A DNA stretch of 64,000 bases, taken from contig JAEUIE010000027.1 in assembly GCA_016795155.1 (NCBI GenBank), positions 36,146 through 100,145 of the forward strand. The letters run 5' to 3'. The DNA comes from Planctomycetia bacterium. GTDB taxonomy: Bacteria; Planctomycetota; Planctomycetia; Gemmatales; HRBIN36. Shown piece after piece: positions 2,046 through 57,441 of the stretch. Position 1 is the first letter of the stretch; every line of letters begins with the position of its first letter. Both the position numbers and the translations under genes were made by a program. The notes beneath the pieces were generated by a model that had not been told where the DNA came from, did not search any database, and worked only from the letters and a program-made list of their open reading frames with translations.

Positions 2046-2268
2046 GACTGTTCCTCCCTGAACAATCGAAAACTTTAAGCAAATTTCCCGAAAACCACAA
2101 GCAGAGCTTGCCGTATTACCCCGCTTACGCTTTTTGCCGATTAGCTTCAGTCTTAACACATCGCTGTTCGATGATGACCATGGGCTATCTTGCCTGTGCA
2201 AACCCATATTGCCTGGCCAGTGTGTCTTTTACCTTTGACTAGATGATCTCTTTCCCGCTAGAGATCCT

Positions 2269-38585: not shown

Positions 38586-38610
38586 ACCTCGGCAGGGACG
38601 CTGAGGAACA

Positions 38611-38644
38611 CCCCGATGCCGCCACGGATGGCACCGCATCGGGG
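38611..38644. other. 9-bp perfect stem-loop between the lipoprotein and BON-domain genes
   Basis: CCCCGATGC pairs with GCATCGGGG over a 16-base loop, with no T-run after it. It may be an mRNA processing or stability element between co-transcribed genes. Confidence 0.6.
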
Positions 38645-38730
38645 GCTAGCAAAGCCAGACGTGTGGCCGCCACCCTCCTCGGGACAGCAAGGTCACCCGA
38701 CTGGCTTTTCTCTTTGCAGCGAGGGAAGTG

Positions 38731-39978
38731 ATGATGCATTCCAGAATAATCTTGTCAGGGTTCTCGCTGTGCTGTTTCGGATTAGCTGCTTCGTTCCTCG
38801 TTGCCGATACGCCGGTACGCCCGTCGCGTGTCTCGTTCCCATCGAAAAAGTCTGTTGATGCGGAACCAGCCAAGCCTGCTGATGTCAAACCAGCCGCGGT
38901 CAAAACGGTAGAACCAAAAGTCGAACCGGTTGTCAGGCAGGCTGCTCAAGTCGTTGAAGAAATCAAACTCAGTGATCACGATTACCATGTCAAAGCTGCC
39001 AGCGTTGAAGTAGCCTGGTTGCAGGATGCCATGACCTATGGCTTGCGTTTGCGGGCCAACGCCAGGCCGGAAGAGAAAATGATCGTCCTCAGTGGCTTCA
39101 TTCCCACCGACCGTCTGCGGGAAAAAGCACTGACGCTGGCCCGGCAAACCGCAGGGAACATTCCCGTTGCTGACCAGATGGTGCTGCAGCCTCACATGGT
39201 GCTCTCGCATGAAGCAGCGACTGATCCGGAACAGGTGTTTCTGATCCAGGTGGAACTGGAAAAGGTGATGCCTGGCATCTCCAAAACACTGCAGGTGAGT
39301 CTGAACTCGCAGGGCGTTGCCCTGGTGAGTGGCAGAGTGGATGAGTTTGAAGACCGTCGCAAGATCATTCGCGCCTTGCAGGCGATACCAGGCTGTACTG
39401 CAGTCAAATATGATCTGAAGGTGTTTGCTACGCAGGTTCTGCTCCCTGCTGTTGCAGTATCTGTACCTGACCAGGCTCCAACAGTAACGCTATCTCCCGT
39501 GACATCCAGCACCGAGAAGAAGGCGCCTGCCAAGCTGGAGAAGCAGCTTTTGCCAGTCCCACCAGTAGTGCAGCCTGATAAACTGCAGAAGCCACCAGTG
39601 CCTGCCATTCCGGTGGTGAAAGCAGAGCCACCTCGCAATGAAACGGCACCCTTGGCAGTTGCTGTCATCCAGGCTGGTGTCTGTACGGTGAAGAAGCCAC
39701 CGGAGGTATCGCTGAGCGGACTGATACCACCCGGCATGATGGGGTGGACCAGTACTGTATCGGAACCAGTTGTATTGCTGGGTGCACCGGTGATTGTGCA
39801 GACGGGTTACTCCATCAACCTGGATGTCATGCAGTCAACAACGCCGGTTGGTAAGAAAACCATCACCAGACCAATAGAAGTGGGATTGCCAGCAACGACG
39901 ATCGTGCCCGTTTCTGTAGAGACAAGCAGGCAGGTACCTGACCAGATTCACGTGATGCCTCGTCTGGCGGATAAGTAA
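38731..39978 (+). CDS. exported protein with two BON-like domains and Pro-rich tail
   Basis: The product is 415 aa from the ATG at 38731, which follows GAGGG; GTG 38728 and ATG 38734 are alternatives. The signal peptide ends near residue 27. Two BON-type alpha/beta modules are visible at about 85-150 (EEKMIVLSGFIPTDRLREKALTLARQ) and 168-235 (LQVSLNSQGVALVSGRVDEFEDRRKIIRAL). BON domains bind phospholipid or peptidoglycan surfaces. The long C-terminal part is rich in Pro, Val and Lys, suggesting an extended cell-wall-spanning tail. It follows the lipoprotein gene on the same strand. Confidence 0.75.
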   Translation: MMHSRIILSGFSLCCFGLAASFLVADTPVRPSRVSFPSKKSVDAEPAKPADVKPAAVKTVEPKVEPVVRQAAQVVEEIKLSDHDYHVKAASVEVAWLQDAMTYGLRLRANARPEEKMIVLSGFIPTDRLREKALTLARQTAGNIPVADQMVLQPHMVLSHEAATDPEQVFLIQVELEKVMPGISKTLQVSLNSQGVALVSGRVDEFEDRRKIIRALQAIPGCTAVKYDLKVFATQVLLPAVAVSVPDQAPTVTLSPVTSSTEKKAPAKLEKQLLPVPPVVQPDKLQKPPVPAIPVVKAEPPRNETAPLAVAVIQAGVCTVKKPPEVSLSGLIPPGMMGWTSTVSEPVVLLGAPVIVQTGYSINLDVMQSTTPVGKKTITRPIEVGLPATTIVPVSVETSRQVPDQIHVMPRLADK

Positions 39979-39988
39979 TTCGACAGTT

Positions 39989-40086
39989 GTGGCAGGGTTA
40001 TGCATGTACCCATGCATGACCCTGCAAGAAAGCAAAGTTGCTACAGATCCAGCAGGGTCATTCGGAGTACCGAATAACCCTGCCAC
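39989..40086. repeat. 98-bp element with 13-bp terminal inverted repeats, copy A
   Basis: The ends GTGGCAGGGTTAT and ATAACCCTGCCAC are perfect inverted copies. Inside are two further hairpins, ATGCATG/CATGCAT and ATTCGGagtaCCGAAT. A second copy is at 50216-50312. No target-site duplication is obvious. Confidence 0.85.
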
Positions 40087-40208
40087 GGCTTATCAAAAGC
40101 TATAATCTGAACCGTCTGTTGTGACATACTCCTGTCACCGTTCCCCCTTACTCCCGACCCCTCTCCCTCCAAGGGAGAAGACAAAGCAGCCCCGTGATGC
40201 ATAAATCA

Positions 40209-41318
40209 TTACTTTCCACTGACGGGTTCGATGGCAACTGTCATAGTAACCTGTTCTGCGACTTTGCCTTGCGGGTTATGTCTCGGTATGGTGGTGGTCA
40301 TGTTGCCCCAGACTGATTCGATTTGCGTACTCTCCAATGGATATCGCAGCACCAGTTCCAGTTTTCCCTGGTAGCTGATCTTCGTCTTGTTATCGAGCGT
40401 GAAGCTGACCTGCCCGGACACCGTGGCATAGCGATGAGTAGATGTAGCACCGGCTTGTTGAAATTGAAGAGTCCCCGACACTGCCTCCACGCCGCCATGC
40501 CCGTCCATCACTGCAGGTGGATACATTTGATCGAGCCAGCGTTTCAGTTGTTGTGCTTCGATCTTGCGTGAATCCTTACTCCATACCAGAGCAGACAACT
40601 CCTCTGGTGCATATGCGATGGCTTCCACGGTAGGCACTTTGAAATGCTGCAGGCGGTTGGAACCGAGTGTCAGGTAGATTCTGATTCCTGGCCCCTTGGG
40701 AACAGGCAGGGCCGAGGTAGCCGGGCGACTCGTACTCTCGTTTGGCAGGTTCAACAGCTTGCTGGCATGCCGCATTTCTCTGGCGAAGTAGTCGGGCATG
40801 CGTTGCTTGATTTCATGGATCGGAGCGGGATGCCGATCCGTCATGCCATCGAAGGAATGGATCAATTGGCCGTCTTCGGAGAGGATGAACACGAGGATGT
40901 TGCTGGAAGGCTGGTTTCTCTTGTGAGCGCGGACCAGCTTTTGAATTTCTTCGGGAGCGTCTTCAGGTTCGCGGCCACTCCAACTGGAGACGATAAAGGG
41001 TGCCAGCGTTTGCTGAACCTGCGTGTTGCCGAGGCAACTGCCTCGGAAATGATCGGCACTGGCTCAGGTGTGGCCGGTGAAGAAATTGCAGCCTGCGGTG
41101 ATGTTGGTGATCCAGAACAATGCAATGGGCCGGTGTTCCTGCCTGGCCCGCTCCCGGGCTTGTTCGAAACTCTCAGCCCAGTCGAGCTGGAAGAATTTCA
41201 ACTGGCTTGACGTGGGGATGGCAGCGAGAGATCGTTGATGAATTTTGCGAGCCTGGGCATCCTGTGCAAACAGATTCGAAGCCAGGCAGCAAAACAGAAG
41301 GAAAGTAATGGCACGCAT
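40209..41318 (-). pseudogene. exported thioredoxin-like protein gene interrupted by an in-frame TGA
   Basis: The frame opens at ATG 41318 with a signal peptide (MRAITFLLFCCLASNLFAQ) and a thioredoxin-like start (FEQARERARQEHRPIALFWITN, then AGCNFF). It meets TGA at 41064-41066 after 84 codons. The same frame then continues without any stop for 284 codons (ASADHFRGSCLGNTQVQ... to PVSGK), with composition like a real protein on both sides. It is either a nonsense mutation (TGG Trp to TGA is one base), or a recoded codon. A hairpin 17 bases after the TGA (41029-41046) resembles a bacterial SECIS. The C-terminal 150 residues are beta-rich and unidentified. Confidence 0.75.
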
Positions 41319-41484
41319 GAACCACCAATTATAGACAATGTGTCTAAAGCATAGCTTGCGAGAGTTTGGTTGCAACGGGAATTCCAGAATAATCTCAGTT
41401 GTTGAATCGTATCAGACTCCCTGCTTGCAGTTCCCTCATCAATCAACGATAATCTGAAACGGATTGTTTCACCTTGAGAATGGT

Positions 41485-42666
41485 ATGTTTGCAGAGACTG
41501 CATCGTTTACCTGGACTGACAGTTGGCGATTACTGGTCATACCACTGCTGGTTCTGGTGAACGGAGTTTTTGTGGCTGGCGAGTTTGCCCTCATTGCCAT
41601 TCGGCGTACCGAAGTGGAGCAGCTGTTGAAATCGGGAACCCGGCGGGCCAAATCACTTTCTCGCCAGGTCGAATCGCTCGATGATGCCATTGCCGCCTGC
41701 CAGTTGGGCATTACGGTAGCCAGCCTGATGCTCGGCTGGCTCGGGGAACGGGCGCTGGCGCAACTGTTTCATCCCCTGTTCTCGTTTCTCACCGGTGGCT
41801 GGCAGCAGGCGGCGGCACATACCGTGGCCAGCATCCTCGCCATCATCATTATCACCGTGCTGCATGTGGTACTGGGAGAACAGGCACCAAAGCTGATCGC
41901 CTTGCAAAGACCAACGTCCGTGTCGCTCTGGATTGCCCTGCCTCTGGAATATTTCACGAAGGTCACCAAACCACTGGTGGTGGCTATGAATGTGATGTCC
42001 AATGGGGTGGCCAAGCTGGTGGGTTTGCCGCCAGTGGGCAGCGAACATCGGCTGCATTCGGTGGAAGAACTGGGCATGCTGGTGGAAGAGGTGGAAGAAG
42101 CCGGGCTGCTTTCGCCGGAGCAGGCTGAGTATGTGCACAACGTGTTTCGCTTCTCAGCCAAGAAGGTTGGCGAGTGCATGTTGCCTCGCGAGAAGATGGT
42201 CTGTCTGGAGTTGCAAACGCCTCTCGACAAGGTGCTGGAACAAGTACGGGAGACGGCACATACTCGTATTCCTGTTTTCGATGGTACGCTGGATAACATT
42301 GTTGGCATTGTGAACACCAAAGATCTGCTCCATCTGGTTTCATTGCAGGGCATGGCCATTCTCGATGATGCAATTTACCCTGCCAGCTTCCTCAAGCCTG
42401 AACAGAGCATTGCCGATGCGATGCGGATGTTCAAGAAAACGCATCGACACATGGCTATCGTTCGCAACACGAACAACGAAGTGGTCGGTCTGATCACACT
42501 GGAAGATATTCTCGAAGAGATCATTGGCGACATTGAAGATGAACATGATCGGCCACAACTGAAGCTGCCACCCCGGCGAAGCAATACGGCTCGGATACTG
42601 AGCAAGCAGCAGGGGTTGCCTCTGGTCAAGCCTCCTCCATTGCCGCCACGAAAGGATTTGCCATGA
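41485..42666 (+). CDS. CNNM/DUF21 membrane protein with CBS domain pair (HlyC/CorC-like)
   Basis: The product is 393 aa from the ATG at 41485; a TTG at 41464 is the only earlier option. The DUF21 transmembrane domain (about 10-190) has several hydrophobic segments. A CBS pair (about 205-335) follows, with the typical CNNM junction (MLPREKMVCLEL, ETAHTRIPVFDG, VVGLITLEDILEEIIGDIEDE). The C-terminal CorC_HlyC domain is absent and replaced by a short basic Pro-rich tail (KPPPLPPRKDLP). The family is linked to Mg2+ or Co2+ efflux. It overlaps the following phosphorylase gene by four bases (ATGA). Confidence 0.88.
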   Translation: MFAETASFTWTDSWRLLVIPLLVLVNGVFVAGEFALIAIRRTEVEQLLKSGTRRAKSLSRQVESLDDAIAACQLGITVASLMLGWLGERALAQLFHPLFSFLTGGWQQAAAHTVASILAIIIITVLHVVLGEQAPKLIALQRPTSVSLWIALPLEYFTKVTKPLVVAMNVMSNGVAKLVGLPPVGSEHRLHSVEELGMLVEEVEEAGLLSPEQAEYVHNVFRFSAKKVGECMLPREKMVCLELQTPLDKVLEQVRETAHTRIPVFDGTLDNIVGIVNTKDLLHLVSLQGMAILDDAIYPASFLKPEQSIADAMRMFKKTHRHMAIVRNTNNEVVGLITLEDILEEIIGDIEDEHDRPQLKLPPRRSNTARILSKQQGLPLVKPPPLPPRKDLP

Positions 42667-43967
42667 GGGCCGTCGATGTCATTCGCCATAAGCGGGATGG
42701 CGGCACACTCTCTGCCGAGGAGATCGCTTTCTTCATTGATGGCGTGACCAGCCATTCGTGGGAGATGTATCAGATATCTGCCATGCTGATGGCAATCGTC
42801 TGGCGCGGGTTGAACGATGGGGAAACGGCGGAACTGACTGCTCGCATGGTGAAATCGGGTGTAGTACTCGATTGGTCTGATATTCCCGGCAAAATGGTGG
42901 ATAAACATTCAGCCGGTGGCGTTGGCGACAAGACTTCGCTGGTGCTGGTGCCGCTGGCGGCTGCGTGTGGCTGCAAGATTCCCAAGATGTCCGGGCGAGG
43001 ACTGGCTCACACGGGCGGCACGCTCGATAAGCTCGAAGCGATTCCGGGTTATCGCATCAACATCTCGCCTGAAGAATTCAAAGCCATCGTTCGCGAGGTA
43101 GGCTGTGCCATCGTGGGGCAAACTGCCAACTTGGCGCCGGCAGACAAGAAGCTTTACAGCATTCGCGATGTGACGGCTACCGTCGAGAGTATCCCGCTGA
43201 TTGCGGGCTCCATCATGAGCAAGAAGCTGGCGGAAGGCATCCAGGGTGTAGTACTCGATGTGAAAGCAGGCCGTGGCGCTTTCATGAAGACCCGCGACGA
43301 CGCCAGGCAACTGGCTCAGACAATGGTGAACATTGGCCAGCGAAATGGCGTGCGAACTGTTGCCCTTCTTACGGATATGAATCAACCTTTGGGTTATGCC
43401 ATCGGCAACAGCCTGGAGGTGATGGAAGCGGTGCAGACACTGCAGGGCCAAGGGCCACGCGACCTGGAACAGCTTTCCGTCAGGCTTGCAGCCTGGCTAG
43501 TCGTGTTATCTGATCTGGCATCATCGCTGCCCAAGGCGGAAGAAATGGTTCAAACAGTCTTGGCCAATGGCAAAGGGTTTCAAAAGTTTTGTGAGATGTG
43601 CGCCAGGCTGGGGGGCGATGTGAAGGTGCTGGAAGACATTAGCCTGTTCCCACAGGCATCGGGCAGGTATCGGGTGCTCGCGAAACAGAACGGGTTTGTG
43701 CAATCGGTGCATGCGGAACACCTGGGGCGATCAGCGATGCTGTTGGGCGCAGGCCGAGCGCGAGTGGAGGATTCCATCGATCATGCGGTAGGAGCGGTGA
43801 TGTTACGCAAGCCAGGTGATGCGATACAAGTGGGCGAAGCATTAGTGGAGTTGCATTACAACCACGAAGCTAGGTTGCATGAAGCGATCCCACTCGCGGA
43901 ACAGGCGTTTGAGATGGGGGACAAGCCTCCGAAGTTGGAGCAGTTGATCTTGGAGACGGTGGGGTAA
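42663..43967 (+). CDS. pyrimidine-nucleoside / thymidine phosphorylase
   Basis: The 434-aa protein has family-standard length. It shows the phosphorylase signature SGRGLAHTGGTLDKLEAIPG, the phosphate loop KHSAGGVGDKTSL, and SKKLAEG with VLDVKAGRGAFM. It cleaves thymidine/uridine/deoxyuridine with phosphate to base and (deoxy)ribose 1-phosphate in the cytosol. I do not choose between deoA and pdp from motifs alone. The ATG overlaps the stop of the CNNM gene, so translation is coupled although no functional link is known. Confidence 0.93.
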   Translation: MRAVDVIRHKRDGGTLSAEEIAFFIDGVTSHSWEMYQISAMLMAIVWRGLNDGETAELTARMVKSGVVLDWSDIPGKMVDKHSAGGVGDKTSLVLVPLAAACGCKIPKMSGRGLAHTGGTLDKLEAIPGYRINISPEEFKAIVREVGCAIVGQTANLAPADKKLYSIRDVTATVESIPLIAGSIMSKKLAEGIQGVVLDVKAGRGAFMKTRDDARQLAQTMVNIGQRNGVRTVALLTDMNQPLGYAIGNSLEVMEAVQTLQGQGPRDLEQLSVRLAAWLVVLSDLASSLPKAEEMVQTVLANGKGFQKFCEMCARLGGDVKVLEDISLFPQASGRYRVLAKQNGFVQSVHAEHLGRSAMLLGAGRARVEDSIDHAVGAVMLRKPGDAIQVGEALVELHYNHEARLHEAIPLAEQAFEMGDKPPKLEQLILETVG

Positions 43968-44055
43968 AGATATGGTAACTGTTGCGGGTCTCATGACCTC
44001 AGGAGGTCATTTCACAGCGAGCTATTCACAACACAACCTTCCGTGGAACCGAATG

Positions 44056-44484
44056 TCACGAATCTTCAGTGTAGGAAGGCTGTTTCTTATCGTCATGAGA
44101 TTTGAGTTGGAAGGATGCAACAAACTCACCGAACATGCATGCGATCCATACATAAAAGCCTGGGTAGAATTGAGAGAGGTGGACAGTGTCGGGAGGAGTT
44201 ACGCCGAACAGAAAAACCGAACATGCCAATATGGTTGCCAGTAGTCCACATCGAAAGGACCATTTTCTGTTGCCTTGAAAGAGATGATACAACCCCAATA
44301 ACCACACTGGATTGGCCCACCACGCAATCGTCAGCATTGCATATGGAAGCGAAAACAGCATCTCGTATCCATAGTACACAGAGCCTTTTGCTCCAGAGAT
44401 ACCCAATCCAGGCATATAGAAGGCTGGAAGTGCGAGAGAAACGAGATACGCCAGTAAAAGTACTTGAGCGATGCGGCGATTCAT
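44056..44484 (-). CDS. small integral membrane protein
   Basis: The product is 142 aa from Met 44484; four residues longer if the ATG at 44496 is used. It has about four hydrophobic segments (RIAQVLLLAYLVSLALPAFY, YAMLTIAWWANPVWLLGLYHL, CGLLATILACSVFLFG, FYVWIACMFGEFVASF) and a charged cytosolic tail. I do not recognise a family. It stands alone between deoA-type and cysK genes and is transcribed toward the phosphorylase gene. Confidence 0.65.
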   Translation of the reverse strand: MNRRIAQVLLLAYLVSLALPAFYMPGLGISGAKGSVYYGYEMLFSLPYAMLTIAWWANPVWLLGLYHLFQGNRKWSFRCGLLATILACSVFLFGVTPPDTVHLSQFYPGFYVWIACMFGEFVASFQLKSHDDKKQPSYTEDS

Positions 44485-44612
44485 TTTTAACTGCACATGA
44501 AAGAACTAACCCTTAGAGCATCTAAGACCAAGAACCCGTTTACCTCAAGCCATTCTCCCAGGTCGAGGGGAGAAAGCAAAGATCAATTTGTTAGCTACGC
44601 TAAGTCACATCC

Positions 44613-45575
44613 TCAATCCTTCAACCCATCAAACAATGCTGTCGAGAGATACCTTTCACCCAAGCTTGGCAGAATAGTGACAATACGTTTACCATGATAT
44701 TCTGGCCGGGCGGCGACCTGGGCGGCGCCCCAGACGTTGGCGCCGCTGCTGATGCCTGCCATGATGCCTTCTTCGATCATCAGTCGGCGTGACCATTCCA
44801 TCGCTGCTTCGTTGGTGACCTGCAGGGTTTCATCGACGAGGCTCAGGTCGAGGTTTTTGGGTACGAAGTTAGCGCCGATGCCTTGAATCTTGTGCGAACC
44901 GGGTTTCAAGGGTTCACCGTTGCGGGTTTGGGTGATGACTGGGGAGAGCACTGGTTCGACCACGATGCATTTGAAGTTGGGATTGAACTTGCGGATGTAA
45001 CGACCAACGCCAGTGATCGTTCCGCCGGTACCTACGCCACAGACGATGGCATCGATGTTCTTGGCGGTGTCTTCCCAGATTTCGGGTCCGGTAGTGCGTT
45101 CGTGGATGGCAGGGTTGGCCGGGTTATCAAACTGTTGGGGCATCCAGGCGTGCTTTCCGCCGTTATCGACAAGTTCCTGTGCTTTGTTGAGAGCGCCGCG
45201 CATGCCTTCCGCGGCGGGGGTGAGCACGAGGTTCGCGCCCATGGCACGCAGCAGAGCCCGGCGTTCCAGCGACATCGATTCAGGCATCGTCAGCGTCAGC
45301 CTGTAACCCTTGGCTGCACAGACAAAAGCCAGGGCAATGCCGGTGTTGCCACTGGTCGGTTCAATGATATGGGTGTCTTTGGTGAGGATGCCTCGGCGTT
45401 CAGCATCTTCAATCATGGCGACGCCGATGCGATCCTTGACGCTGCTGAGCGGATTGAAGAACTCGCACTTGGCAAAGACCGTGGCATGCTCGGCAGGGAT
45501 CACCCGACGCAGGCGAACCATGGGGGTGTTGGCTATCGTGTGGGTAATGCTGTCAAACGTTTTGCCGAGAGGCAT
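44613..45575 (-). CDS. cysK: cysteine synthase A (O-acetylserine sulfhydrylase)
   Basis: The 320-aa protein has fold-type II PLP features: Lys47 in LSSVKDRIG, the substrate loop EPTSGNTGIAL, and the phosphate loop VCGVGTGGTITG. Length is that of plain CysK, with no CBS domains, unlike the cystathionine beta-synthase at 20146. It makes L-Cys from O-acetyl-Ser and sulfide. It is followed on the same strand by a large spacer; no cysE is nearby. Confidence 0.93.
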   Translation of the reverse strand: MPLGKTFDSITHTIANTPMVRLRRVIPAEHATVFAKCEFFNPLSSVKDRIGVAMIEDAERRGILTKDTHIIEPTSGNTGIALAFVCAAKGYRLTLTMPESMSLERRALLRAMGANLVLTPAAEGMRGALNKAQELVDNGGKHAWMPQQFDNPANPAIHERTTGPEIWEDTAKNIDAIVCGVGTGGTITGVGRYIRKFNPNFKCIVVEPVLSPVITQTRNGEPLKPGSHKIQGIGANFVPKNLDLSLVDETLQVTNEAAMEWSRRLMIEEGIMAGISSGANVWGAAQVAARPEYHGKRIVTILPSLGERYLSTALFDGLKD

Positions 45576-45681
45576 GGCGAATTCCCTTTATTGTAATGCA
45601 AGAGAGGCAGCAGCATTTTAGCAAGATGAATGGTTGGGTGGAAGGAAAACTGTTGAAAGGGCTGACAATAAAAACACCCTT

Positions 45682-45716
45682 ACCGCCGGCCCCTCTCCTA
45701 CCAGCGGAGAGTGGAG
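45682..45716. repeat. degenerate GAGGGG-type element
   Basis: GGCCCCTCTCCTaccaGCGGAGAGTGGAG, a decayed relative of the elements at 13164 and 29582, just beyond the stop of the DUF4175-like gene. Confidence 0.5.
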
Positions 45717-45721
45717 AAATG

Positions 45722-47635
45722 TTATCGCGGCTCAAAAACCTTCCGCTGCTGCTTTTCCACTTGCCTGAGGCGGTTTTCCTGCTGCACGACGTTGACCACC
45801 CAGTCGATGAACTGCGATTCGGAGACAATGGATTTTCTTCTGACGACAGACCGGCCGAGGTTGCGGTCGGGGTCGGCGTGGCGGTCGCGGGCTTCGAGGT
45901 AGTATTCGAGCGTGTCGCCCAGTTTCAGTTGCGGGATGGAACGTGTCTGGAAATCAAAGCGTCCGCCACCCTGCACCCTTCCGAGTTCTCGTTCAGGGTC
46001 AGCAGGCTGCACCGTGTGAAAAGCGATCTGGTCCTTGGGCTGACTTGATGTAATTGCACCGGTCTTGAAATCAAAGGTGCCTTGCTGGCCGGCTTTTGCT
46101 TCGGTCAAAGGCAACTGTTCCCAGGGGCCTTCGTTGATGCGGTAGCGGAACACGACGGAATCGATAGCCAGGTCGTCACGCACCAGGTAGCTGATGCGGA
46201 TGGAGCGACCCAAGGGTACGGGCATGCCATCGAGATCGAGTTCTTCCGCGCCTTCGCTCGGCTGGGAAAAGCGTTCGGGCAACAGGGTGATAACGGGCAC
46301 TTCATCAGGATGAAAGGAAATGGATCGGCGCGGTATCGGCCGGTTGGTTAAGCCATGCTGGTCACTCACCACAATGCGATAAGCAGCAGCCTGCGAGGGA
46401 AGCGCGACTTGTGCCGATGCCGATAAGCCATCCGAGGCAATGGACAGCGGGATGCGGGCAAGAGGCAATAGCGGGCCGGCTGCACTGGGTGTCCAGCCGA
46501 GAGATTGTTCAGCATGAAGTAGAAACGGCACAGCAACCGGGCCGACGGGCAAAGCTAACTGTGCCCCCAGTTCAGGAAGTAATGGCGCCAGCAGTTCAGC
46601 ATATGCCTCGGCAATGGGAGTTGGTGTACTGACCTGGATGCGGGCCACGCTGCCTGGCACCGGTTTCAAATCGCCTTTAGGTTGAGGCAGTTCGTATGGT
46701 GAACCATCAGGCCGCAACCCCACATATCGGGGTAACAGTAGCGATGCTTCCCACGAAGTGAGCACAGGCCGGGGGACGAAGTTGATTTCACCCGATTCAT
46801 GCGAACGGCCATCGTAGAGCCAGGCATCGTGCGTGAACGAAGTGGAAGAAGCAGGAAGCGACGTGGTGAACAACGCACCTTCGTTGGTGACCGTGTGGAA
46901 CCGAAGAGGGTAAGTTTCTTTAGCCTGGCCTTCAGGTCGAATCTCGACGGCGCCTGTCATCTCCTGAGACCAGTTGCCTGTGACGAGGTACGTCAGCGTG
47001 GCTGGTTCGCCACTGGGCTGCAGCGTGGGAGTGATGTTGAGCAGATGCACGCTGCGTGGGATGGGCTGCGCGGAACCCATGAACCGTTGCCAGAGTATCG
47101 CAGTGGTATCAGGCCACTTGAGCCAGAGGACCAGTGGAATCAGCAATGCGGGAAGCTGCAGCGTCCAACTCCATCGCCAGCGCCGTTGGTCAAGCAGCTC
47201 CGTGAAATCAGCATGCTCAGCCATCGTCTCGGCATTTTGCGTTACCTTGGCGATCAGTTCTTTTGACATGCCTGATTGGTTAGCGCCGGGAGCATTCAGT
47301 TGCACTGCGGTAACCAGGTTGTGGCCATAACAAGCATCCTGCGATTCGACCCACAGGGCCAGTTCGTTGCCGGAAAGCCCCTGGTTCCACGGTTTGATCA
47401 GCCATTGCCAGGTGAGCCAGCCCATGGTGCCTGCAACGGTGAAACGCATACCCCAGCGTAGCCAGCCGGGAGTATCCCGCCAAAGATCAATGAGCCAATC
47501 GATGCCGGTAAAGATCAGGAACAGCGACACGGTGATGGCAACAATGCGGGCAATTCCCCAGACCAGGCGCAAACGCCTTTCGTGCTGTGCCAGGCTACCG
47601 AGTTTTTGCAGCAGTATTTCAGGCATGCGTGGCAT
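45722..47635 (-). CDS. large membrane protein, DUF4175-like
   Basis: The ATG at 47635 overlaps the stop of the upstream VWA gene (TAATG) and gives 637 aa; 11 earlier codons are open but unlikely. Two membrane segments at about 25-80 (LVWGIARIVAITVSLFLIFTGI, GMRFTVAGTMGWLTWQWLI) and one at about 150 precede a long extracytoplasmic beta-rich region with Ig-like pieces and a charged C-terminal coil (LDWVVNVVQQENRLRQVEKQQRKVFE). In planctomycetes such proteins follow VWA/MoxR-type clusters. Function unknown; it likely forms a complex with its coupled partner. Confidence 0.7.
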   Translation of the reverse strand: MPRMPEILLQKLGSLAQHERRLRLVWGIARIVAITVSLFLIFTGIDWLIDLWRDTPGWLRWGMRFTVAGTMGWLTWQWLIKPWNQGLSGNELALWVESQDACYGHNLVTAVQLNAPGANQSGMSKELIAKVTQNAETMAEHADFTELLDQRRWRWSWTLQLPALLIPLVLWLKWPDTTAILWQRFMGSAQPIPRSVHLLNITPTLQPSGEPATLTYLVTGNWSQEMTGAVEIRPEGQAKETYPLRFHTVTNEGALFTTSLPASSTSFTHDAWLYDGRSHESGEINFVPRPVLTSWEASLLLPRYVGLRPDGSPYELPQPKGDLKPVPGSVARIQVSTPTPIAEAYAELLAPLLPELGAQLALPVGPVAVPFLLHAEQSLGWTPSAAGPLLPLARIPLSIASDGLSASAQVALPSQAAAYRIVVSDQHGLTNRPIPRRSISFHPDEVPVITLLPERFSQPSEGAEELDLDGMPVPLGRSIRISYLVRDDLAIDSVVFRYRINEGPWEQLPLTEAKAGQQGTFDFKTGAITSSQPKDQIAFHTVQPADPERELGRVQGGGRFDFQTRSIPQLKLGDTLEYYLEARDRHADPDRNLGRSVVRRKSIVSESQFIDWVVNVVQQENRLRQVEKQQRKVFEPR

Positions 47636-50067
47636 TAACTCAGATTGGAGAGTTTGCGGATAATCCATTCACCAGTCAGCAGACAGCCGATCAGCACCAG
47701 CGCCAGGGGGTTCCATAGGACAAAGTCGCGACGATATTGATACATGCCCAGCAAGGGTTTAATACGTTCAGGCAATAGATGCAAATCTTCCTCGCGGGAG
47801 AAGGTGCCTCCACTGCCTTCGCTCAACGATTTCAAGAGGGCAGCATTCATTGGAATAGGCAATCGCTCATCATGCGGAGCGAAGTCGACATGGAAAGGCA
47901 TCTGGCTCGGTTCGGGTGATTCCATGGCAAGCATGAAGCGGCCCGGTTTTTCGTTATTGAGCAGAGCGCGATAGTCGCCTGGCTGGCCGGGGATGGCTTC
48001 CAGATTCAGGTTGGAAACGGGTTCGCCACTCGGCTTGCCAGTACGGTCGAGCGGGATGATACGTGCCGACAGGCGTGCATCTTGAACAGGTTGATATTCC
48101 TGATTGTAGACCCGAGCATAGAGGAAGCCGGGTTTGCCTACATACTGTTCCAGGCGGTCGAAGGAGAACTGCACGCGGCGAGCACCACCCAGCAGCCGAG
48201 GCAACCCGAGTTGATAGACCACCTGGCCCCAGAAGCGAGCGAAGAGTTTTTCCCCGCCATTGGCTCGCCATCGCCAGGTTTCATCGGAGCCGATGTAAAG
48301 CACTTGCCCCCGGCCATAGCGTTGCAGCGCCATCACAGGCCTGCCCCGTTCGCCCATGTTCTTGTCGGGATGTTCCAGCAATGTCACGGTGCCGGGCCTG
48401 ACTTTCAGCACGTTGGCTATCTGATAAAAGCCGGGAAGTTCCTGCCAAAGCTTATGGTTGGCATCCTGCTCATCAGCCAAAGCCATCATCTCATGACGCT
48501 GACCTGCGGAGGTAAGCAAAGGCAGAACGGATTCGGTCTTGCGGGAAAAATCAATGGGCTCAAGCTCTTGCGGCACTTCGACCGGCAACACGTCTTCCAG
48601 CGCAGTTTTCATGTATTTGCCTGGTGAGTGGCGGTGGCCTGCAATCATGACCAGCCCGGCGCCTTCGCGCACCAGGTCGCGCAGCCAGGTCAGCTTTTCG
48701 ATTCCCCAGACTTCAGGGTTCACATCGCCCAGAATGACCAGATCGTACTGGAACAGATCAGCTCGTGAAGCGGGAAGCTGCGCTTCGAACGGAGTTTTCT
48801 GCATGCCTGCCGGGTCGTTGCCGGTGAAGTGAAAATGTGCTTCGACCCGTCGATCGCGCAGCAGCGTGGACATGAGAAACTTGGTTTCAAAGCGGGGTGA
48901 CTGATCAATCAGCAACACTTTGACCTGTCGATCAATGACCCGCACCCGCTGGTTCCATTCGATGGTGGAAAGCGGCGAATCTTCGAGTGCCGGGCCAGTG
49001 ACCTGCACACGCAGATCAACCGGGCCATCGGTCGTCAGGTTCTTTGGCACCACGAGCGGAATGGTTTCCTGCAGTTGCTCGCCGTTGCGGCCTGCCAAAT
49101 CTTTCCGGGCAACGATGATGTCATTCAGTGAAATCGTCATGGTCATCGGCAACGCTTTCAGCCCCTGCGCACGCCAGGTGATATGCGCCTGCACGGTGTC
49201 TTCGAGAAACATGGCTTCAGGCACCGTGACCGATTTGATCTGCAGGTGCGACCAGTCGGTCGAGCCGATGCCTACGGTGTGAATGGGTATGCTGAACTCT
49301 TTCGCCCGCTTGACCGATTGTTCAGGCGCGATAGCACTCCCCTGTTCCAGGCCATCGGTCATCACCACGATGGCAGCAGGCAGATCAGCTTCGATCTCAG
49401 CAGAGAGCAACTGATACAGTGCATCGCCCAGCGTCGATGCGGTTTCGGTGGCAGTGAAACCTTCGATGGAAACCTGTCCTCCTGCCTGCACGTTGATCTG
49501 CGAGCCGTTGAGCGACTGGCCGAAGAGCATGATCCGCACCGGGCTGTGCTTTTCCATCTTCTTGACAAGTTGCAATTGCGGATGAGCCAGAAGCAGACGA
49601 ACCAGATCGGCCCGGGAAAGCTGATCGGGTGTGCCTTGCGGTACCTGGCTCATGGAACTGGAAGGATTAATGCTGGTATCAGGCGGGACAAGTTGAGCAG
49701 CTAGGGCCAGCCGTAATTTGTCAGCAGCCTGCGAGCGGGGATCAATCAGTGCCATGCTCAGACTATTATCGAGCAGAAGGACAACAGGCCGTGGCTGTTG
49801 TGACTGCAACGTTGCTTCGAGAGTAGGCCTGCAGATGAGGAGCAGGATGAGAGAGAAGACGCCCAGGCGAAGTAGAACGAGTAGAGTGCGTTGCCAGCGG
49901 GCGAGTTTTTCCTGCCGATAGAACCAGAAGGACAGGCCAGCCATGAGCAAAATGGCGGGAACCCAGACCCACCAGGGTGGAATGGCTCGCAGGCTCCACG
50001 CATACTCCAGCAGGCGCGTACCAGCAGCGCCCGGTTCATTGATCAGCCATGACGCCAGTCCATCCAA
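47635..50067 (-). CDS. membrane protein with von Willebrand A domain and glutamine-amidotransferase-like domain
   Basis: The 810-aa protein has two N-terminal membrane segments (about 33-55, 62-82), a VWA domain (about 93-290) with the MIDAS motif DNSLSM and a later TDG (VVMTDGLEQG), a beta-rich region, then an amidotransferase-like Rossmann region (about 395-600: VKVLLIDQSPRFETKF, YDLVILGDVNPE, GAGLVMIAGHRH) without a visible catalytic Cys. It ends in a third membrane segment (PLALVLIGCLLTG). MIDAS binding of Mg2+ is predicted. Coupled by TAATG overlap to the DUF4175-like gene. Homologous clusters often include MoxR ATPase and DUF58 genes, absent here. Confidence 0.8.
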   Translation of the reverse strand: MDGLASWLINEPGAAGTRLLEYAWSLRAIPPWWVWVPAILLMAGLSFWFYRQEKLARWQRTLLVLLRLGVFSLILLLICRPTLEATLQSQQPRPVVLLLDNSLSMALIDPRSQAADKLRLALAAQLVPPDTSINPSSSMSQVPQGTPDQLSRADLVRLLLAHPQLQLVKKMEKHSPVRIMLFGQSLNGSQINVQAGGQVSIEGFTATETASTLGDALYQLLSAEIEADLPAAIVVMTDGLEQGSAIAPEQSVKRAKEFSIPIHTVGIGSTDWSHLQIKSVTVPEAMFLEDTVQAHITWRAQGLKALPMTMTISLNDIIVARKDLAGRNGEQLQETIPLVVPKNLTTDGPVDLRVQVTGPALEDSPLSTIEWNQRVRVIDRQVKVLLIDQSPRFETKFLMSTLLRDRRVEAHFHFTGNDPAGMQKTPFEAQLPASRADLFQYDLVILGDVNPEVWGIEKLTWLRDLVREGAGLVMIAGHRHSPGKYMKTALEDVLPVEVPQELEPIDFSRKTESVLPLLTSAGQRHEMMALADEQDANHKLWQELPGFYQIANVLKVRPGTVTLLEHPDKNMGERGRPVMALQRYGRGQVLYIGSDETWRWRANGGEKLFARFWGQVVYQLGLPRLLGGARRVQFSFDRLEQYVGKPGFLYARVYNQEYQPVQDARLSARIIPLDRTGKPSGEPVSNLNLEAIPGQPGDYRALLNNEKPGRFMLAMESPEPSQMPFHVDFAPHDERLPIPMNAALLKSLSEGSGGTFSREEDLHLLPERIKPLLGMYQYRRDFVLWNPLALVLIGCLLTGEWIIRKLSNLS

Positions 50068-50707
50068 GCGAAGGCCCCTTGCAATATCAACTCATACTAC
50101 TGTCATAGCATCGCGGGAGCATGAAGCCATGAGGTTTGCGTGCTCTTCAGAAACTTCTCACGTACCTCCTCTTGACAGGGCGGGTGACCAGGTGCCAGTT
50201 GAGAAACCGGTAGGTGTGGCAGGGTCATGCATGTAATCATGCATGACCCTGCAGAACTACTGAGTTTTACATATCCAGCAGGGTCATCCGGAGTACCGAA
50301 TAACCCTGCCACAACTTTGCATGAAGAGTGTAGTGATTGACACTGATATGTCGCTGATTCAACCCCCACCCGGCCTCCCCTTGGCAAGGGGAGGAGAAAT
50401 ACAGGGTAGGCAAACGGTGCCAGTCTGGAAGTTGAGTTTTGCAAAGTGAGCTGCCTGTTAATTGCGTTGACATGGGTATGACACCTATTCAACTAAGACT
50501 GCGAACAACTGCTGCAATCGCTACAGCAATCGTCCCTCGACCGGGAAAAGATTAAACTCGCTGCCATCAGTGTCAAGAATCGCAAAGTATGAAAGAGAGT
50601 CCACCGATGCTTAACTATGTCAGTCTATCGTCAATGTGACATGTAAGTGTCACTACGCACCAGTTGACGAGAGCACCGCGAGCCGACATCCGAGTGGAGG
50701 GAGTGAA
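50068..50707. other. 640-base spacer with a repeat and the promoter of the coiled-coil gene
   Basis: It holds copy B of the 98-bp element (50216-50312), a Gly-rich hairpin CTCCCCTTggCAAGGGGAG near 50378-50396, and the A/T-rich run before the coiled-coil gene. No other gene is credible. Confidence 0.5.
50216..50312. repeat. 98-bp element with terminal inverted repeats, copy B
   Basis: It has the same order of parts as copy A (GTGGCAGGGTCAT..., ATGCATGTAATCATGCAT, CCGGAGTACCG, ...ATAACCCTGCCAC). The middle, between the two internal hairpins, differs. It lies between the divergent VWA and coiled-coil genes. Confidence 0.85.
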
Positions 50708-51286
50708 ATGCCAGGGGCCAAGTGGGGTTGGGTTGCCTTCATCGGGGCAATCAGCGTGCTTTTTGCCGCCAGCCAGCAGGACCAGTCTTCCAGTATCAAA
50801 GTGACGCAACTATTAAGGCAGGAACTGAAATCCACCATGACGGAGCGGGATCAGTTGCAAGGCACTCTGAGCCAATCACAGGAACAGGTATCCCTGCTGA
50901 CCGAATGGTCGCAGCAGCAGGAATTGCAGCTATCGTTCAATCAGCGCGATCTGAAACGGGCTCAACAGGAAATAGAAAAGCTGCGTAAGGAAGTTTCCAG
51001 CATCAGCCAGGATCGCAATCAGCTTCAGCAGTCGCTGGCAGCCTTGCACCTGGAACGAAGCCAGACCCGCCGGAGCATTGATCAGCTCAAGCAGGGGCTG
51101 CATCAACTGCTACAGCAGACGGAAGGTGTTGCAGCCTCGCTGTCAGGCCCGCCTGCAGGTTATGCACAAATTCTATTTGAAGAAGAACAGCCCAGGCCTT
51201 TATCTCTGCAGGCACAGGCAATGCCCATCAAGCCCGTGCAGTCCTGGGTTCAGTATGCCGATGAGCCGTTGAATGAAAAGCAGTAG
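50708..51286 (+). CDS. coiled-coil membrane-anchored protein of unknown function
   Basis: The ATG at 50708 follows GGAGGGAG and gives 192 aa. A single N-terminal membrane segment (about 6-20) is followed by a long heptad-rich coiled coil (about 28-135: LQGTLSQSQEQVSLLTEW, RAQQEIEKLRKEV). A conserved-looking tail follows (GYAQILFEEEQPRPL...YADEPLNEKQ). A decayed duplicate of the tail occurs at 54197-54366, so the gene once had a sister copy. Neighbours do not suggest a function. Confidence 0.7.
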   Translation: MPGAKWGWVAFIGAISVLFAASQQDQSSSIKVTQLLRQELKSTMTERDQLQGTLSQSQEQVSLLTEWSQQQELQLSFNQRDLKRAQQEIEKLRKEVSSISQDRNQLQQSLAALHLERSQTRRSIDQLKQGLHQLLQQTEGVAASLSGPPAGYAQILFEEEQPRPLSLQAQAMPIKPVQSWVQYADEPLNEKQ

Positions 51287-53739: not shown

Positions 53740-54196
53740 CCTAAGCCTCCAGCAGATTCGTCAAAAAGAAAAGGAGTTGTTTGGCAGTTGCCAAACACGG
53801 AGTTGATGCTAGTCAAGCAAACTCAGCCATACTCAGTGTGCCGATCCATAGCAGCAATTGGACCACTCAGCTTCGATCGCTGCCGGTCAAAAACTATTGA
53901 TGCTTAACGGCAACGAGATTCTAGGACTACTGCTGTCATGCAACCGAGAAGTGTCAGTAAAGGTTTTGTGTAGAGTTGATGTAGACTGCAGGCAGTGAGG
54001 ATACCGCGGTTTGCGTCTAGGCACGCTAGCTTTTTGTTGGGCAGAAGTTGAGAAAAGGTGGGTGTACTGCTGCTGAGCGACGGTGCCTCCGAAACACGAT
54101 ATTCGATAACCGTTGGGTGTGTCACAGCGTAGAGTTGCGAGGCACGTGTGCTCTCGCAACATATTAGACAGACGCACCAACGTCGCGGGATCTGTT
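53740..54196. other. gene-free stretch before the decayed duplicate
   Basis: No credible gene is seen. A hairpin GTTGCGAG / CTCTCGCAAC lies at about 54134-54160, and a GCGGTTTGCG...GCTAGC segment near 54005 recalls the hairpin at 34274. Confidence 0.4.
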
Positions 54197-54366
54197 GCAG
54201 CAGACCTAAGGAGTTGCAGCATCACTCTCCGGCCGGCCTGCGGGGTGTGCACAAATCCTCTTTGAGGAAGACGAACCAAGGACTTTGTCTCCGCAGGCTT
54301 TGCCAGCCATACCGATGCAGACCTGGATACAGTTTTGCGGATGAGCAGTTGAATGAGAAGCAGTAG
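54197..54366 (+). pseudogene. decayed duplicate of the 3' end of the coiled-coil gene
   Basis: The 170 bases align with the last 170 of the gene at 50708-51286 (GCAGCAGAC..., CACAAATcCTcTTTGA, TGCC-ATACC, ending GAATGAgAAGCAGTAG). One extra T near 54332 moves the final ADEQLNEKQ out of frame with the preceding QILFEEDEPRTL. No start or 5' half remains. It ends three bases before the first island-flanking repeat. Confidence 0.85.
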
Positions 54367-54369
54367 GGC

Positions 54370-54514
54370 GGGTCGAGCGATAAAACCTTGAAAAAATGGT
54401 TAATACGCTGGATCAAGCTCGCCCCGCCTTGCAATTGCAGGCGTTGATGGGGCGAGCCTGGTTTCGCAAGTGTTTTATCACCAGAGACTTGGCGCTCGAT
54501 CCATCCTACTCGGC
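54370..54514. repeat. island-flanking structured repeat, left copy
   Basis: The 145 bases align in direct orientation with 57298-57441 at roughly three quarters identity. Shared blocks include GGGTCGAGCGA at the start, CTCGCCCCGCCTTGC, TTGATGGGGCGAGC, GGTTTCG and CTTATCACC/TTTATCACC, ending TACTCGGC. CTCGCCCC pairs with GGGGCGAG around GCCTTGCAATTGCAGGC, giving a strong nested hairpin. Confidence 0.85.
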
Positions 54515-54676
54515 TAAAACAGGCTAGAGTAATTCACTGATGTGGTCGATTTATTCAGATTTACTGTATTTTAGCTCTCAAGAGGCTGCGTTTGTAGCAT
54601 TTCTCTTGTATCCCAACATGCTGCAAGCTAAATTGCATTGTGAGTGAATTGGCTGTAGTTTGCACTGGAGCATTTC

Positions 54677-55174
54677 ATGGCGATCAACGATAGCACGGAA
54701 AAGAACTTGATCCGATTGAATGATCAACAATCGGGAAATAAGGATCTTGCAGCAACTGCAGGTTCTGGTGCAGTCATCCAACTTGGAGCAAATTTGCAGC
54801 TAGACCTGACCGGTCTAACAGTTGAGCAGCAACAACAGTTAAAAATAAAACATGCAGAAGCCATGATTGGAGTTAATAAAAAGGCGCAGGAACTTGTTAC
54901 CGATGCAGGTGCATTGAATCATGCTCTTGGAACAATGGCACATCATACTGGTGAAGTTGCATCTTCCGGGCAAGACGTGACGATTACTCACACTCAAGAT
55001 AGCTCGCTTGGGCGTACCGAAATAATTATGGGGACAAGCGACGCAGCAAAAAAAGGCAAACTGACGTTGTCTCAAACTAAACAACGTGGAAGTGGTTGTT
55101 CTCTAATGATTGCAGCTATCATAGCAGGTGGTCTTGGAGCATTTATGTGCATAGCAGTGTTCTCTTCCTGGTAG
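54677..55174 (+). CDS. island protein 1: tail-anchored protein of unknown function
   Basis: The 165-aa protein follows GGAG by six bases. It has an N-terminal Gly/Ala/Gln region, a Gln-rich helix (EQQQQLKIKHAEAMIG), a polar segment (DVTITHTQDSSLGRTEIIMGTS) and a single C-terminal membrane segment (about 139-163) entered by SGCSLM and ended by Trp. There is no signal peptide, so it should be inserted tail-first, its bulk in the cytosol. It is A/T-richer than the surrounding genes. I recognise no family. Confidence 0.7.
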   Translation: MAINDSTEKNLIRLNDQQSGNKDLAATAGSGAVIQLGANLQLDLTGLTVEQQQQLKIKHAEAMIGVNKKAQELVTDAGALNHALGTMAHHTGEVASSGQDVTITHTQDSSLGRTEIIMGTSDAAKKGKLTLSQTKQRGSGCSLMIAAIIAGGLGAFMCIAVFSSW

Positions 55175-55257
55175 CATCTTGAAATTGGTTTGCAACGCCA
55201 GTCCGAACTAAATTCGTTTTCAAAACCAGTATGTTAAAGCTGCTTTAAAATGAACCG

Positions 55258-55551
55258 ATGTCAACGATTAATCTAACCATCAGCGACGACATCGAAGCTA
55301 ATAGAGTGCTCGACTCTTTAGCAAGCCAGTGCGGACACATGACGCCAACCGACCGGGATCAAATTATTTCACAAATTAGCACCATCATCTATGACTTAGA
55401 GCAACGTGGTAAGGACTTAGCATCCCTCGGCAGCCAGTTTAGGACAGTCAAAACTCTTCAATTATTGGGTTGCAAAATCCAGATCTCTGCTACCTACGGT
55501 AACCCAAAGTATCGTTCTTTATTCTCGTGGTTACGTTCATTCCTTCCATGA
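55258..55551 (+). CDS. island protein 2: small protein of unknown function
   Basis: The 97-aa protein has no membrane segment. It looks like an alpha/beta protein (INLTISDDIEANRVLDSLAS, QLLGCKIQISATYG) and ends in aromatic/basic residues (RSLFSWLRSFLP). The ribosome site is weak. It lies 83 bases after island protein 1 and 18 bases before island protein 3 on the same strand, so co-expression is likely. No family recognised. Confidence 0.55.
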   Translation: MSTINLTISDDIEANRVLDSLASQCGHMTPTDRDQIISQISTIIYDLEQRGKDLASLGSQFRTVKTLQLLGCKIQISATYGNPKYRSLFSWLRSFLP

Positions 55552-55569
55552 AAATGAGCACATCATTCA

Positions 55570-56622
55570 ATGAGCCGTAAGCAACTCCAGGATGCAATTC
55601 TAAAGATTCTTCAGAATTCTCCACTCCCATTAAAGGCGAGAGAGATTAGAACTTCCATTTGTCGAGAGCTTGATCTACCATCAATCACGGTAAAAGACAT
55701 CAATTCAATTCTCTACTCTGAACTTAGGCATACAGCTGTAAAGGACGAAGAACATCGCTGGAAGATTCAAGCTCAGCGTTCGTCTGCAAAGTCAACATTC
55801 AAGAATAAAGGTTTAGAACAAGCACTACAACACATTGATGAAGCGAAGAAGTTGTCTGAATTATTAGGAGGGACAGACGCTGATGTGAAACAGTATCTAT
55901 TCAGTTTGTCTGAAAGCGATCTTTCCGTGATCTTGAACGAATATGAAAATCAATATGGTGCAAGCAAGAGAGAATACGCAGAAAATATACTACCGCTCTG
56001 GCGAACTGGACGCAGAAAAATGAGTGGCTTGGTTGCAGAACGACTTTACAATCTATTACCGCCGAGAATGCCCTTGCAGATTAAATATGACATGGTGCAA
56101 ACACTTTGGAAAAAGTTCAGCCCGAGTTCGAAGGCAAGCTATGTTATTGGACCAGACTGCGACCCAACCTTGGCTTGCAATATTATTGAACAGCATCTTC
56201 TTGAGAGCATTTCGAAGTACACAATCCCCCATGAGCTCGAAAATCGGTTTAGCTGGCTTTCTGCAGGTGATGTTTCGATACGACAAGATTTGCTGAACTA
56301 TTTTCTTGAGAAGGAAAGAGCCTTAATTATTGAGGATGCTAGTAATCGAACCAAAATAATCATGAAGCATCTTCAACAACACGGGCAATGGACGGAATGC
56401 ATCAAACAAGAATACACACTATGTAACCAGAGATTAGAAATATTCTTTGACAAATCTGCAACAGGAATTATGGAGGGACGGCCATGTCCTTCTAATTCTC
56501 AGCAACTTGTGGACAAGCAACATCAAAAGATTCCAGAGAGCAGTGGTTGCTTAATGTTGTTATGTGTTATCCTAGTGGTAGGGGCAACAGCCTGCGTTTG
56601 CATCGTCGTAAATTGGTTCTAA
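55570..56622 (+). CDS. island protein 3: winged-helix-like protein with C-terminal membrane anchor
   Basis: The 350-aa protein has, at about 1-65, a winged-helix pattern (LQDAILKILQNSPLPLKAREI, VKDINSILYSELR, DEEHRWKI) like HARE/HB1-type wHTH domains found in restriction and chromatin proteins; this is by eye. A helical middle of about 250 residues is unassigned. The C-terminus is one membrane segment (about 325-347) entered by SGCLML and ended by NWF, resembling the tail of island protein 1. A membrane-tethered DNA- or protein-binding role is inferred. Confidence 0.65.
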   Translation: MSRKQLQDAILKILQNSPLPLKAREIRTSICRELDLPSITVKDINSILYSELRHTAVKDEEHRWKIQAQRSSAKSTFKNKGLEQALQHIDEAKKLSELLGGTDADVKQYLFSLSESDLSVILNEYENQYGASKREYAENILPLWRTGRRKMSGLVAERLYNLLPPRMPLQIKYDMVQTLWKKFSPSSKASYVIGPDCDPTLACNIIEQHLLESISKYTIPHELENRFSWLSAGDVSIRQDLLNYFLEKERALIIEDASNRTKIIMKHLQQHGQWTECIKQEYTLCNQRLEIFFDKSATGIMEGRPCPSNSQQLVDKQHQKIPESSGCLMLLCVILVVGATACVCIVVNWF

Positions 56623-56687
56623 GAGCAATTGATCAACGTGAGTGATTCGCAGCTTGTGATACCCAGCTATTGAAGGATAATGATGCT

Positions 56688-57290
56688 GTGCTAGAAATAT
56701 TAATTCAACTTGTCCTGGTCACGCTTATTTCTCCCGATGAGATGACATGCAAAGTTGTTGGAATTACTGATGGAGACACGATAGTAGTGTTGGATTCTGA
56801 AAAACAACAACATAAGATTCGGCTCGAAGGCATTGATGCTCCAGAAAAGAGCCAGCCATTCGGCTCAAAGAGTAAGGATGCGTTAAGTACATTGATAATG
56901 GGAAAGGATGTAACGATTCGTTGGTCGAAAAAGGATCGTTATGGACGCATACTAGGAGACGTTTTTGTTGGTGAATTACACGTTAACCTAGAGTTAGTTA
57001 AGTGCGGCATGGCCTGGCACTTCAAGGAATATTCGAGCTCAAAATCGTTGTCAAATGCTGAAGCTGAAGCCAGAAATTCAAAAAGTGGTTTATGGGCATT
57101 AAATAATCCAATCTCGCCTTGGCAGTTTCGGAAAGACCGTAACATACCGAATGAAAATGCTTCAGTTAAAAAACCTACTAGTCCAAATGGATGGAGCAGA
57201 ACATCTATAGCATTGGTTTGCCTACTCCTTGTCGCCACTTTCATAGGTATTCGTCTGAAAGCAAAAAGTTTATTCGGCAGAATTAGCTAA
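56688..57290 (+). CDS. island protein 4: membrane-anchored staphylococcal-type nuclease
   Basis: I use GTG 56688, which has AAGGA ten bases upstream, giving 200 aa; TTG 56670 would put that site inside the gene. A hydrophobic N-terminus precedes an SNase domain (about 16-140) with complete active site: DGDT (Asp for Ca2+), IRLEGIDAPE (Arg, Asp, Glu) and DRYGR (the second Arg). A second hydrophobic segment (about 172-190) and basic end follow. SNases cut DNA and RNA with Ca2+. If the N-terminus is a signal peptide the nuclease faces outward, anchored at its C-terminus. Confidence 0.85.
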   Translation: MLEILIQLVLVTLISPDEMTCKVVGITDGDTIVVLDSEKQQHKIRLEGIDAPEKSQPFGSKSKDALSTLIMGKDVTIRWSKKDRYGRILGDVFVGELHVNLELVKCGMAWHFKEYSSSKSLSNAEAEARNSKSGLWALNNPISPWQFRKDRNIPNENASVKKPTSPNGWSRTSIALVCLLLVATFIGIRLKAKSLFGRIS

Positions 57291-57297
57291 ACAGTGT

Positions 57298-57441
57298 GGG
57301 TCGAGCGAAACAGCTTCGAAACGATACTGAAGTCACTGAATCAATCTCGCCCCGCCTTGCGATTGCAAGCGCTGATGGGGCGAGCTTGGTTTCGTGGGTG
57401 TCTTATCACCTGAGACTTAGCGCTCACCCATCTTACTCGGC
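57298..57441. repeat. island-flanking structured repeat, right copy
   Basis: Direct copy of 54370-54514 (see there): the same order of blocks and a CTCGCCCC / GGGGCGAG hairpin around GCCTTGCGATTGCAAGC. It starts seven bases after the nuclease stop codon and ends just before the stop of the following minus-strand gene. Confidence 0.85.

Follow-up and report, generated by a model that had tools for sequence, protein, structure and literature searches.

A conserved membrane-linked gene set with an SNase-family nuclease, carried on mobile DNA, as a candidate defence against incoming DNA

We asked what a compact island of low-GC genes might do in the genome of a planctomycete (Planctomycetia bacterium, assembly GCA_016795155.1; genome G000, 5.28 Mb in 68 contigs). 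The window, a stretch of 64,000 nucleotides from contig JAEUIE010000027.1, carries four plus-strand genes (54677-55174, 55258-55551, 55570-56622 and 56670-57290) that lie between two copies of a structured repeat, near the planctomycete PSCyt1/PSCyt2/PSD1 and DUF1559 genes. They encode P1, a tail-anchored protein of 165 aa; P2, of 97 aa; P3, of 350 aa; and P4, a nuclease of the staphylococcal nuclease (SNase) family. The GC content of 54677-57290 is 42.0%, compared with 53.5% ± 1.8% in 278 windows of the same size outside it (minimum 48.5%), and its tetranucleotide distance is 0.453, compared with 0.191 ± 0.020 elsewhere (maximum 0.254). This bears out the low-GC island of the original prediction, which was made from the letters of the sequence alone. 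The genes recur in the same order in distant bacteria, in most cases next to an SNase gene, and are carried on mobile DNA. They may well form a mobile membrane defence module that would cut phage or plasmid DNA during entry, with the nuclease on the outer face, a reading to which we give slightly less than an even chance.

A search of genome contigs with the P3 alignment returned 17 loci, most of them from metagenome-assembled genomes (MAGs). They belong to Planctomycetales, Planctomicrobium, Sphingomonas, Aestuariivirga, Maricaulis, Roseivivax, Sulfitobacter, Thiogranum, Agitococcus, a deltaproteobacterium, a Thermodesulfobacteriota MAG, Bryobacterales, Anaerolineaceae and others, so that the set spans about five phyla by the taxa labelled in the records; L013 comes from Sphingomonas echinoides and L015 from Thiogranum. 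P1 precedes P3 in 16 of the 17, as a piece of only 58 aa in L012, and the remaining sequence, L011, begins 88 bases before P3 and is untestable for P1. The order P1-P2 slot-P3 is kept in all 16 testable distant loci. In 15 of these the P2 slot holds an open reading frame (ORF) of 90-117 aa, and in the 16th (L020) P2 was found by profile (E 3.4e-5). P2 is fast-evolving: direct comparison with the window protein gave E<=0.01 for only four of the slot proteins, and homology in the remaining slots is taken from place, shape or profile.

Closer to the host, the set is scarce. The P3 search gave a match in 2 of 198 relatives, the host itself and G072 (which showed only a P3-core protein). Among 392 genomes of the phylum, the host was the only one to match. 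Kinship among the P3 proteins crosses phyla, with those of a gammaproteobacterial MAG (L010) and an acidobacterial MAG (L014) mutually closest at 59%. The deviant composition and this patchy occurrence point to horizontal acquisition, as the original prediction had proposed; its further suggestion, that the repeats bound or carried the cassette, did not hold up (see below).

P4 is a member of the SNase family by a wide margin (PF00565, E 2.8e-25; 89.3 bits, curated cut-off 21). Its start is more likely the GTG at 56688, which has AAGGA upstream, than the TTG at 56670. The protein has a short N-terminal hydrophobic stretch and a C-terminal transmembrane (TM) segment (178-196), and its motifs IRL, GIDAPE and YGR occupy the active-site positions when aligned with 10 other SNases; we take their residues to fill the catalytic Arg, Asp, Glu and Arg roles of the family. 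The active site and hydrophobic ends noticed in the first reading of the sequence are thus both present. Across the set, the Arg, Asp and Glu are found in 11 of 11 SNases and the second Arg is clear in 10. Compared with the staphylococcal nuclease family at large, P4 is distinguished by its own predicted membrane anchor and by its place in a conserved gene set.

An SNase gene adjoins the set in 11 of the 17 loci: before P1 in L013, L015, L016, L022 and L023, after P3 in L017, L018, L024 and L025, and convergent with it in L009 and L021. The module DNA of L022 and L023 is identical (2144/2144), and with the two counted once adjacency is seen in 10 of 16 independent loci. In the host's order, a search of 41 genomes gave just 9 SNase matches, the host itself contributing two, and 8 of 14 control genomes have an SNase gene. 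With SNase genes this rare, adjacency at the observed frequency is not expected by chance. Among viral contigs, L032 has an SNase directly before P1 and L031 has one ~2.5 kb downstream of the set. In L030, which also bears phage head genes, the SNase's place is taken by a nuclease of the phospholipase D (PLD) type (PLDc_2, PF13091, 2.3e-28; 2084-2614, minus strand) with a lipoprotein-like N-terminus. In the Sulfitobacter locus (L025), the SNase is followed by a gene without a Pfam match (5147-5929), whose product has hydrophobic segments by eye.

A hydrophobic segment was found in 11 of 12 SNases, a count that includes one not adjacent to a set (L009, 995-1402). It is N-terminal in 10 and C-terminal in the window protein. 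Two cysteine pairs occur in 6 of 11 (L013, L015, L016, L018, L021 and L023), and the SNases of L021, L031 and the upstream copy of L009 have signal-like N-termini by eye. Because most are predicted to be anchored or exported and because 6 of 11 carry paired cysteines, the nucleases are probably periplasmic.

The partner proteins face the membrane from the other side, as far as prediction goes. The AlphaFold2 model of P1 (54677-55174; predicted local distance difference test, pLDDT, 79.5) shows a low-confidence N-terminus, a long helix (49-96), a beta-hairpin (102-119) that bears the motif GRTEhIMG, and a TM segment (140-164). The family has 58 other homologues in the protein database (59 including P1 itself), and a single, C-terminal hydrophobic segment is present in all 59 rows analysed (47 of the 58 homologues, 11 locus rows and the window). 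P3 (55570-56622) was modelled from an alignment of 67 sequences, with 66 of its 85 other homologues used (86 members including itself). In this AlphaFold2 model (pLDDT 90.8), a winged helix (1-68) precedes an all-alpha core that starts at residue 80, and the chain continues with a helix (235-271), a beta-hairpin (277-294) and a TM segment (326-349). A hydrophobic segment occurs in 56 of the 67 P3 rows, some of which are fragments, and is always C-terminal. P1 and P3 are therefore predicted to be cytosolic proteins with C-terminal membrane anchors, in agreement with the tail anchors and winged helix first proposed for them. P1, P2 and P3 gave nothing above chance against Pfam, NCBIfam or PADLOC. 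What was first described as four genes, three of them for products with membrane segments and none matching a named defence family, is a conserved set, in which only the nuclease belongs to a known family.

The N-terminal part of P3 varies. In the window (55570-55773) it is a compact winged helix, as in Zalpha domains, and its sequence is related to that of I73R, a Z-DNA-binding protein from African swine fever virus (7viv, 7vwv); the profile search with this part listed no Zalpha chain other than I73R at E<=10. N45, Y49 and W64 are present in 8 of 8 planctomycete-type P3 N-termini, and we take them to correspond to the Zalpha signature residues: the Asn and Tyr of the recognition helix and the wing Trp. 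In Zalpha domains a proline pair precedes the wing Trp; it is absent from all 8. P3 also differs from Zalpha proteins and I73R in that it is bacterial and its winged helix is fused to a membrane-anchored core. Most homologues have instead a short tail rich in Lys, Arg and Tyr (51 rows, some of them fragments, with a mean net charge of +4.8), and in two, P0066 and P0068, an N-terminal WYL domain replaces the winged helix or basic tail. Separately, another planctomycete genome encodes a 432-aa protein (L027, 844-2142, minus strand) in which the P3 core leads into a proline-rich linker and then a C-terminus of another kind.

These features suggest how a defence module could work. A P4-type nuclease, held at the outer side of the cytoplasmic membrane, would cut the DNA of phages or plasmids as it is threaded into the cell. 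At the inner face, the N-terminal part of P3 may touch nucleic acid, and P1 and P2 would link P3 through the membrane to the nuclease, at the place where DNA enters. The compartment of the nuclease would spare the host chromosome, with self and non-self told apart by place, as in SNIPE. A more specific version is doubtful: an immune complex, built of three new families, that probes DNA on both faces of the membrane as it comes in. In this complex the Zalpha part of P3 senses strained injected DNA at the cytosolic face and the nuclease cuts at the periplasmic face, with an interchangeable sensor slot (Zalpha, WYL or basic tail) and an interchangeable nuclease slot (SNase or PLD). Zalpha domains are sensors of left-handed nucleic acid in animal antiviral immunity and in large DNA viruses. 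If the set does act as a membrane defence, P3 would offer a bacterial Zalpha relative for studying the origin of that domain.

SNIPE (PD-lambda-1) is a membrane-bound nuclease that cuts phage DNA during injection, an example of how tethering to the membrane can confine a nuclease to phage DNA (PMC13190303). SNIPE and the present set share a membrane-tethered nuclease, a variable N-terminal part and a proposed distinction of self from non-self by inner-membrane location (PMC13190303). SNIPE is a single protein that has DUF4041 and whose GIY-YIG nuclease faces the cytosol (PMC13190303), whereas the set comprises four genes and an SNase (or PLD) nuclease that probably faces the periplasm. Membership in SNIPE was rejected, as a Pfam scan at E<=1 found neither DUF4041 nor GIY-YIG in any of the four proteins. 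Zorya and Kiwa are named in the discussion of the SNIPE paper as membrane systems proposed to act at phage entry (PMC13190303). The set resembles them in its proposed action at the membrane during entry. It does not belong to either by the PADLOC models, which presumably include those for Zorya and Kiwa: at E<=1 no model matched P1-P3, and P4 matched only an SNc+LTD model (4.1e-10). Place-based recognition of foreign DNA has so far been shown for SNIPE. If a membrane defence role for the set is true, such recognition arose at least twice from unrelated parts, once with a nuclease outside the membrane, and three unnamed families (P1-P3) from about five phyla join the catalogue of defences against phages and plasmids.

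The same parts could also be put together as an abortive system, in which P3 and P1 serve as sensors of infection at the membrane and kill the infected cell by way of the nuclease or of membrane damage, instead of limiting the cut to incoming DNA. The exchange of the P3 N-terminus is of the kind seen in sensor domains, and membrane partners with a nuclease are a common sensor-effector layout, which the set resembles. The predominance of N-terminal anchors or export signals among the nucleases, with the paired cysteines, however suggests that they are kept from the chromosome, and we regard this explanation as unlikely.

The carriers of the set include islands, viral contigs and a conjugative plasmid. 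A comM-type Mg-chelatase gene, a known island hotspot, is split in 2 of the 14 genomes tested, with the set at the edge of the insertion, and the two belong to different phyla. In L009 (DAOVLV010000001.1), the ChlI part and Mg_chelatase positions 1-46 lie at 35616-36275 and positions 40-204 at 49954-50451; the insertion (~36276-49953) is about 13.7 kb and P1 begins at 36437. In L018 (NZ_QKVK01000003.1), Mg_chelatase positions 24-205 lie at 372761-373306 and the other part at 383453-384058, around an insertion of about 10.1 kb (~373307-383452) in which P1 begins at 373449. The gene is unbroken (one match) in the other 12 genomes, the host among them. P1, the P2 slot and P3 occur in three viral contigs (L030, L031 and L032), and phage structural genes are close to the set in L030 (major head protein, phrog_212, 8e-80) and L031 (portal, 1.6e-61); a terminase large subunit gene (4.6e-46) lies near the set in L012. 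A conjugative plasmid of Vibrio carries the three genes too, and an Abi_2 gene lies close to them; the P2-slot gene of this plasmid did not match the P2 profile. A Thioalkalivibrio conjugative plasmid has a lone distant P3 relative (L029, 8001-8930; 26% identical), with no P1 in the stretch read.

Carriage of this kind would also suit plasmid exclusion or competition between elements, in which the set blocks conjugative or transformed DNA on behalf of its carrier and is not directed at phages. The conjugative plasmids (the full P1-P2 slot-P3 order in Vibrio, the P3 relative only in Thioalkalivibrio), and the position of the set beside phage structural genes and in insertions that break comM, speak for this. 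Against it, among 72,556 plasmid records only the same two matched each of two queries, and most loci lie on chromosomal contigs; we do not think it probable. A third explanation is DNA scavenging or uptake, with a surface nuclease and a membrane complex that would trim DNA outside the cell, as food or for use in transformation. Exported SNases are capable of such a role. The very patchy occurrence and the carriage by mobile DNA argue against it, as do the two insertions, since the comM gene that they break helps natural transformation, and it appears decidedly unlikely.

In favour of the membrane defence module itself, the distances of P1 and P3 correlate across 19 loci (r 0.73, 0/5000 shuffles), as do those of P1 and the SNase (12 loci, r 0.71, 0/5000) and of P3 and the SNase (12 loci, r 0.49, shuffle fraction 0.0056). 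The company of the set is a hint and not a measured enrichment. When 100 ORFs of at least 200 aa, taken from the surroundings of 20 loci, were compared with PADLOC, 106 models matched at E<=1e-10, and the 25 of these that were listed include a type II methyltransferase, PDC-S35, PD-T4-5, PDC-S64, Ppl and HEC-09, with one member each. Hand-picked neighbours include PDC-S57 and a SIR2-like protein in L015, a methyltransferase and PDC-S35 in L019, PDC-S64 in L012 and Ppl in L031; most other hand-picked proteins scanned had no match.

Several observations weigh against the defence module. The neighbour control drew on planctomycete chromosome only and is not a matched comparison, and it also gave matches: 36 models for 85 ORFs, of which the 25 listed have two members each and are, judging by name, presumably of kinase type. 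The correlations among the protein distances are in part what shared descent would give. Six of the 17 loci have no adjacent SNase (L010, L012, L019, L020, L011 and L014); in the first four, where both flanks are visible, an SNase profile search found no match at E<=0.05, and L011 and L014 are cut upstream by contig ends. The set of the Vibrio plasmid likewise has no SNase in the 14 kb read. The side of the membrane is not fixed by charge, as the residues around 11 SNase segments favour the periplasm in 3, the reverse in 4 and tie in 4, and the window SNase does not have the cysteine pairs. Lastly, relatives of three queries were absent from 50,697 phage records.

The repeats that flank the genes proved to be a side issue. 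The left copy (54365-54510, plus strand) and the right copy (57293-57438, plus strand; its start at most 3 bases from the SNase stop codon) were the single pair in an ungapped search (133 nt, 80%; 54365-54497 and 57293-57425), and a gapped alignment of the ~145-bp direct repeats gave 118/144 identical positions (82%). Plus-strand folding beats that of shuffled sequences (z -4.7 for the left and -4.1 for the right, 0/200 shuffles each), so the direct structured repeats described at the outset, and their enclosure of four plus-strand genes, are confirmed. By blastn the host genome holds five copies, four full and one partial. A covariance model (R1) from the four full copies, with 150 of 1232 candidates scored, recovers the same five loci; four of its nine matches are a copy read on the reverse strand. 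A search of 40 other genomes turned up no copy of the repeat. Its multiple copies have inverted ends (GGGTGGGTCGAGCG / CGCTCGACCCACCC), as is characteristic of miniature inverted-repeat transposable elements (MITEs). TA is present at both edges in three of the four full copies (C3, C6 and the left copy), while the 5' edge of the right copy has diverged. The inverted ends and flanking TA fit a MITE, a non-autonomous transposon.

Each of the three copies beyond the window is solitary in the stretch of 11-20 kb fetched around it, and an 11-base core of the repeat is absent from the related gene-set loci that were fetched for comparison; the repeats thus do not define a carrier. The original prediction had named two outcomes that would speak against it: cargo-free copies of the repeat were indeed found, although few, and a failure to find the genes together in other genomes was not. 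That the four genes were brought in by a composite mobile unit made of the two repeats is very improbable, because, although the repeats enclose just the low-GC genes, resemble each other slightly more (82%) than the left one resembles C3 and C6 (76%), and both continue into TACTCGGC at the right edge, they are too diverged for a recent joint insertion, occur singly elsewhere without cargo, and their core is missing from the gene set elsewhere. The left copy begins at the end of a decayed duplicate (54192-54366) of 51107-51286, the 3' part of a coiled-coil gene (50636-51286), with 139 of 173 bases identical (80%).

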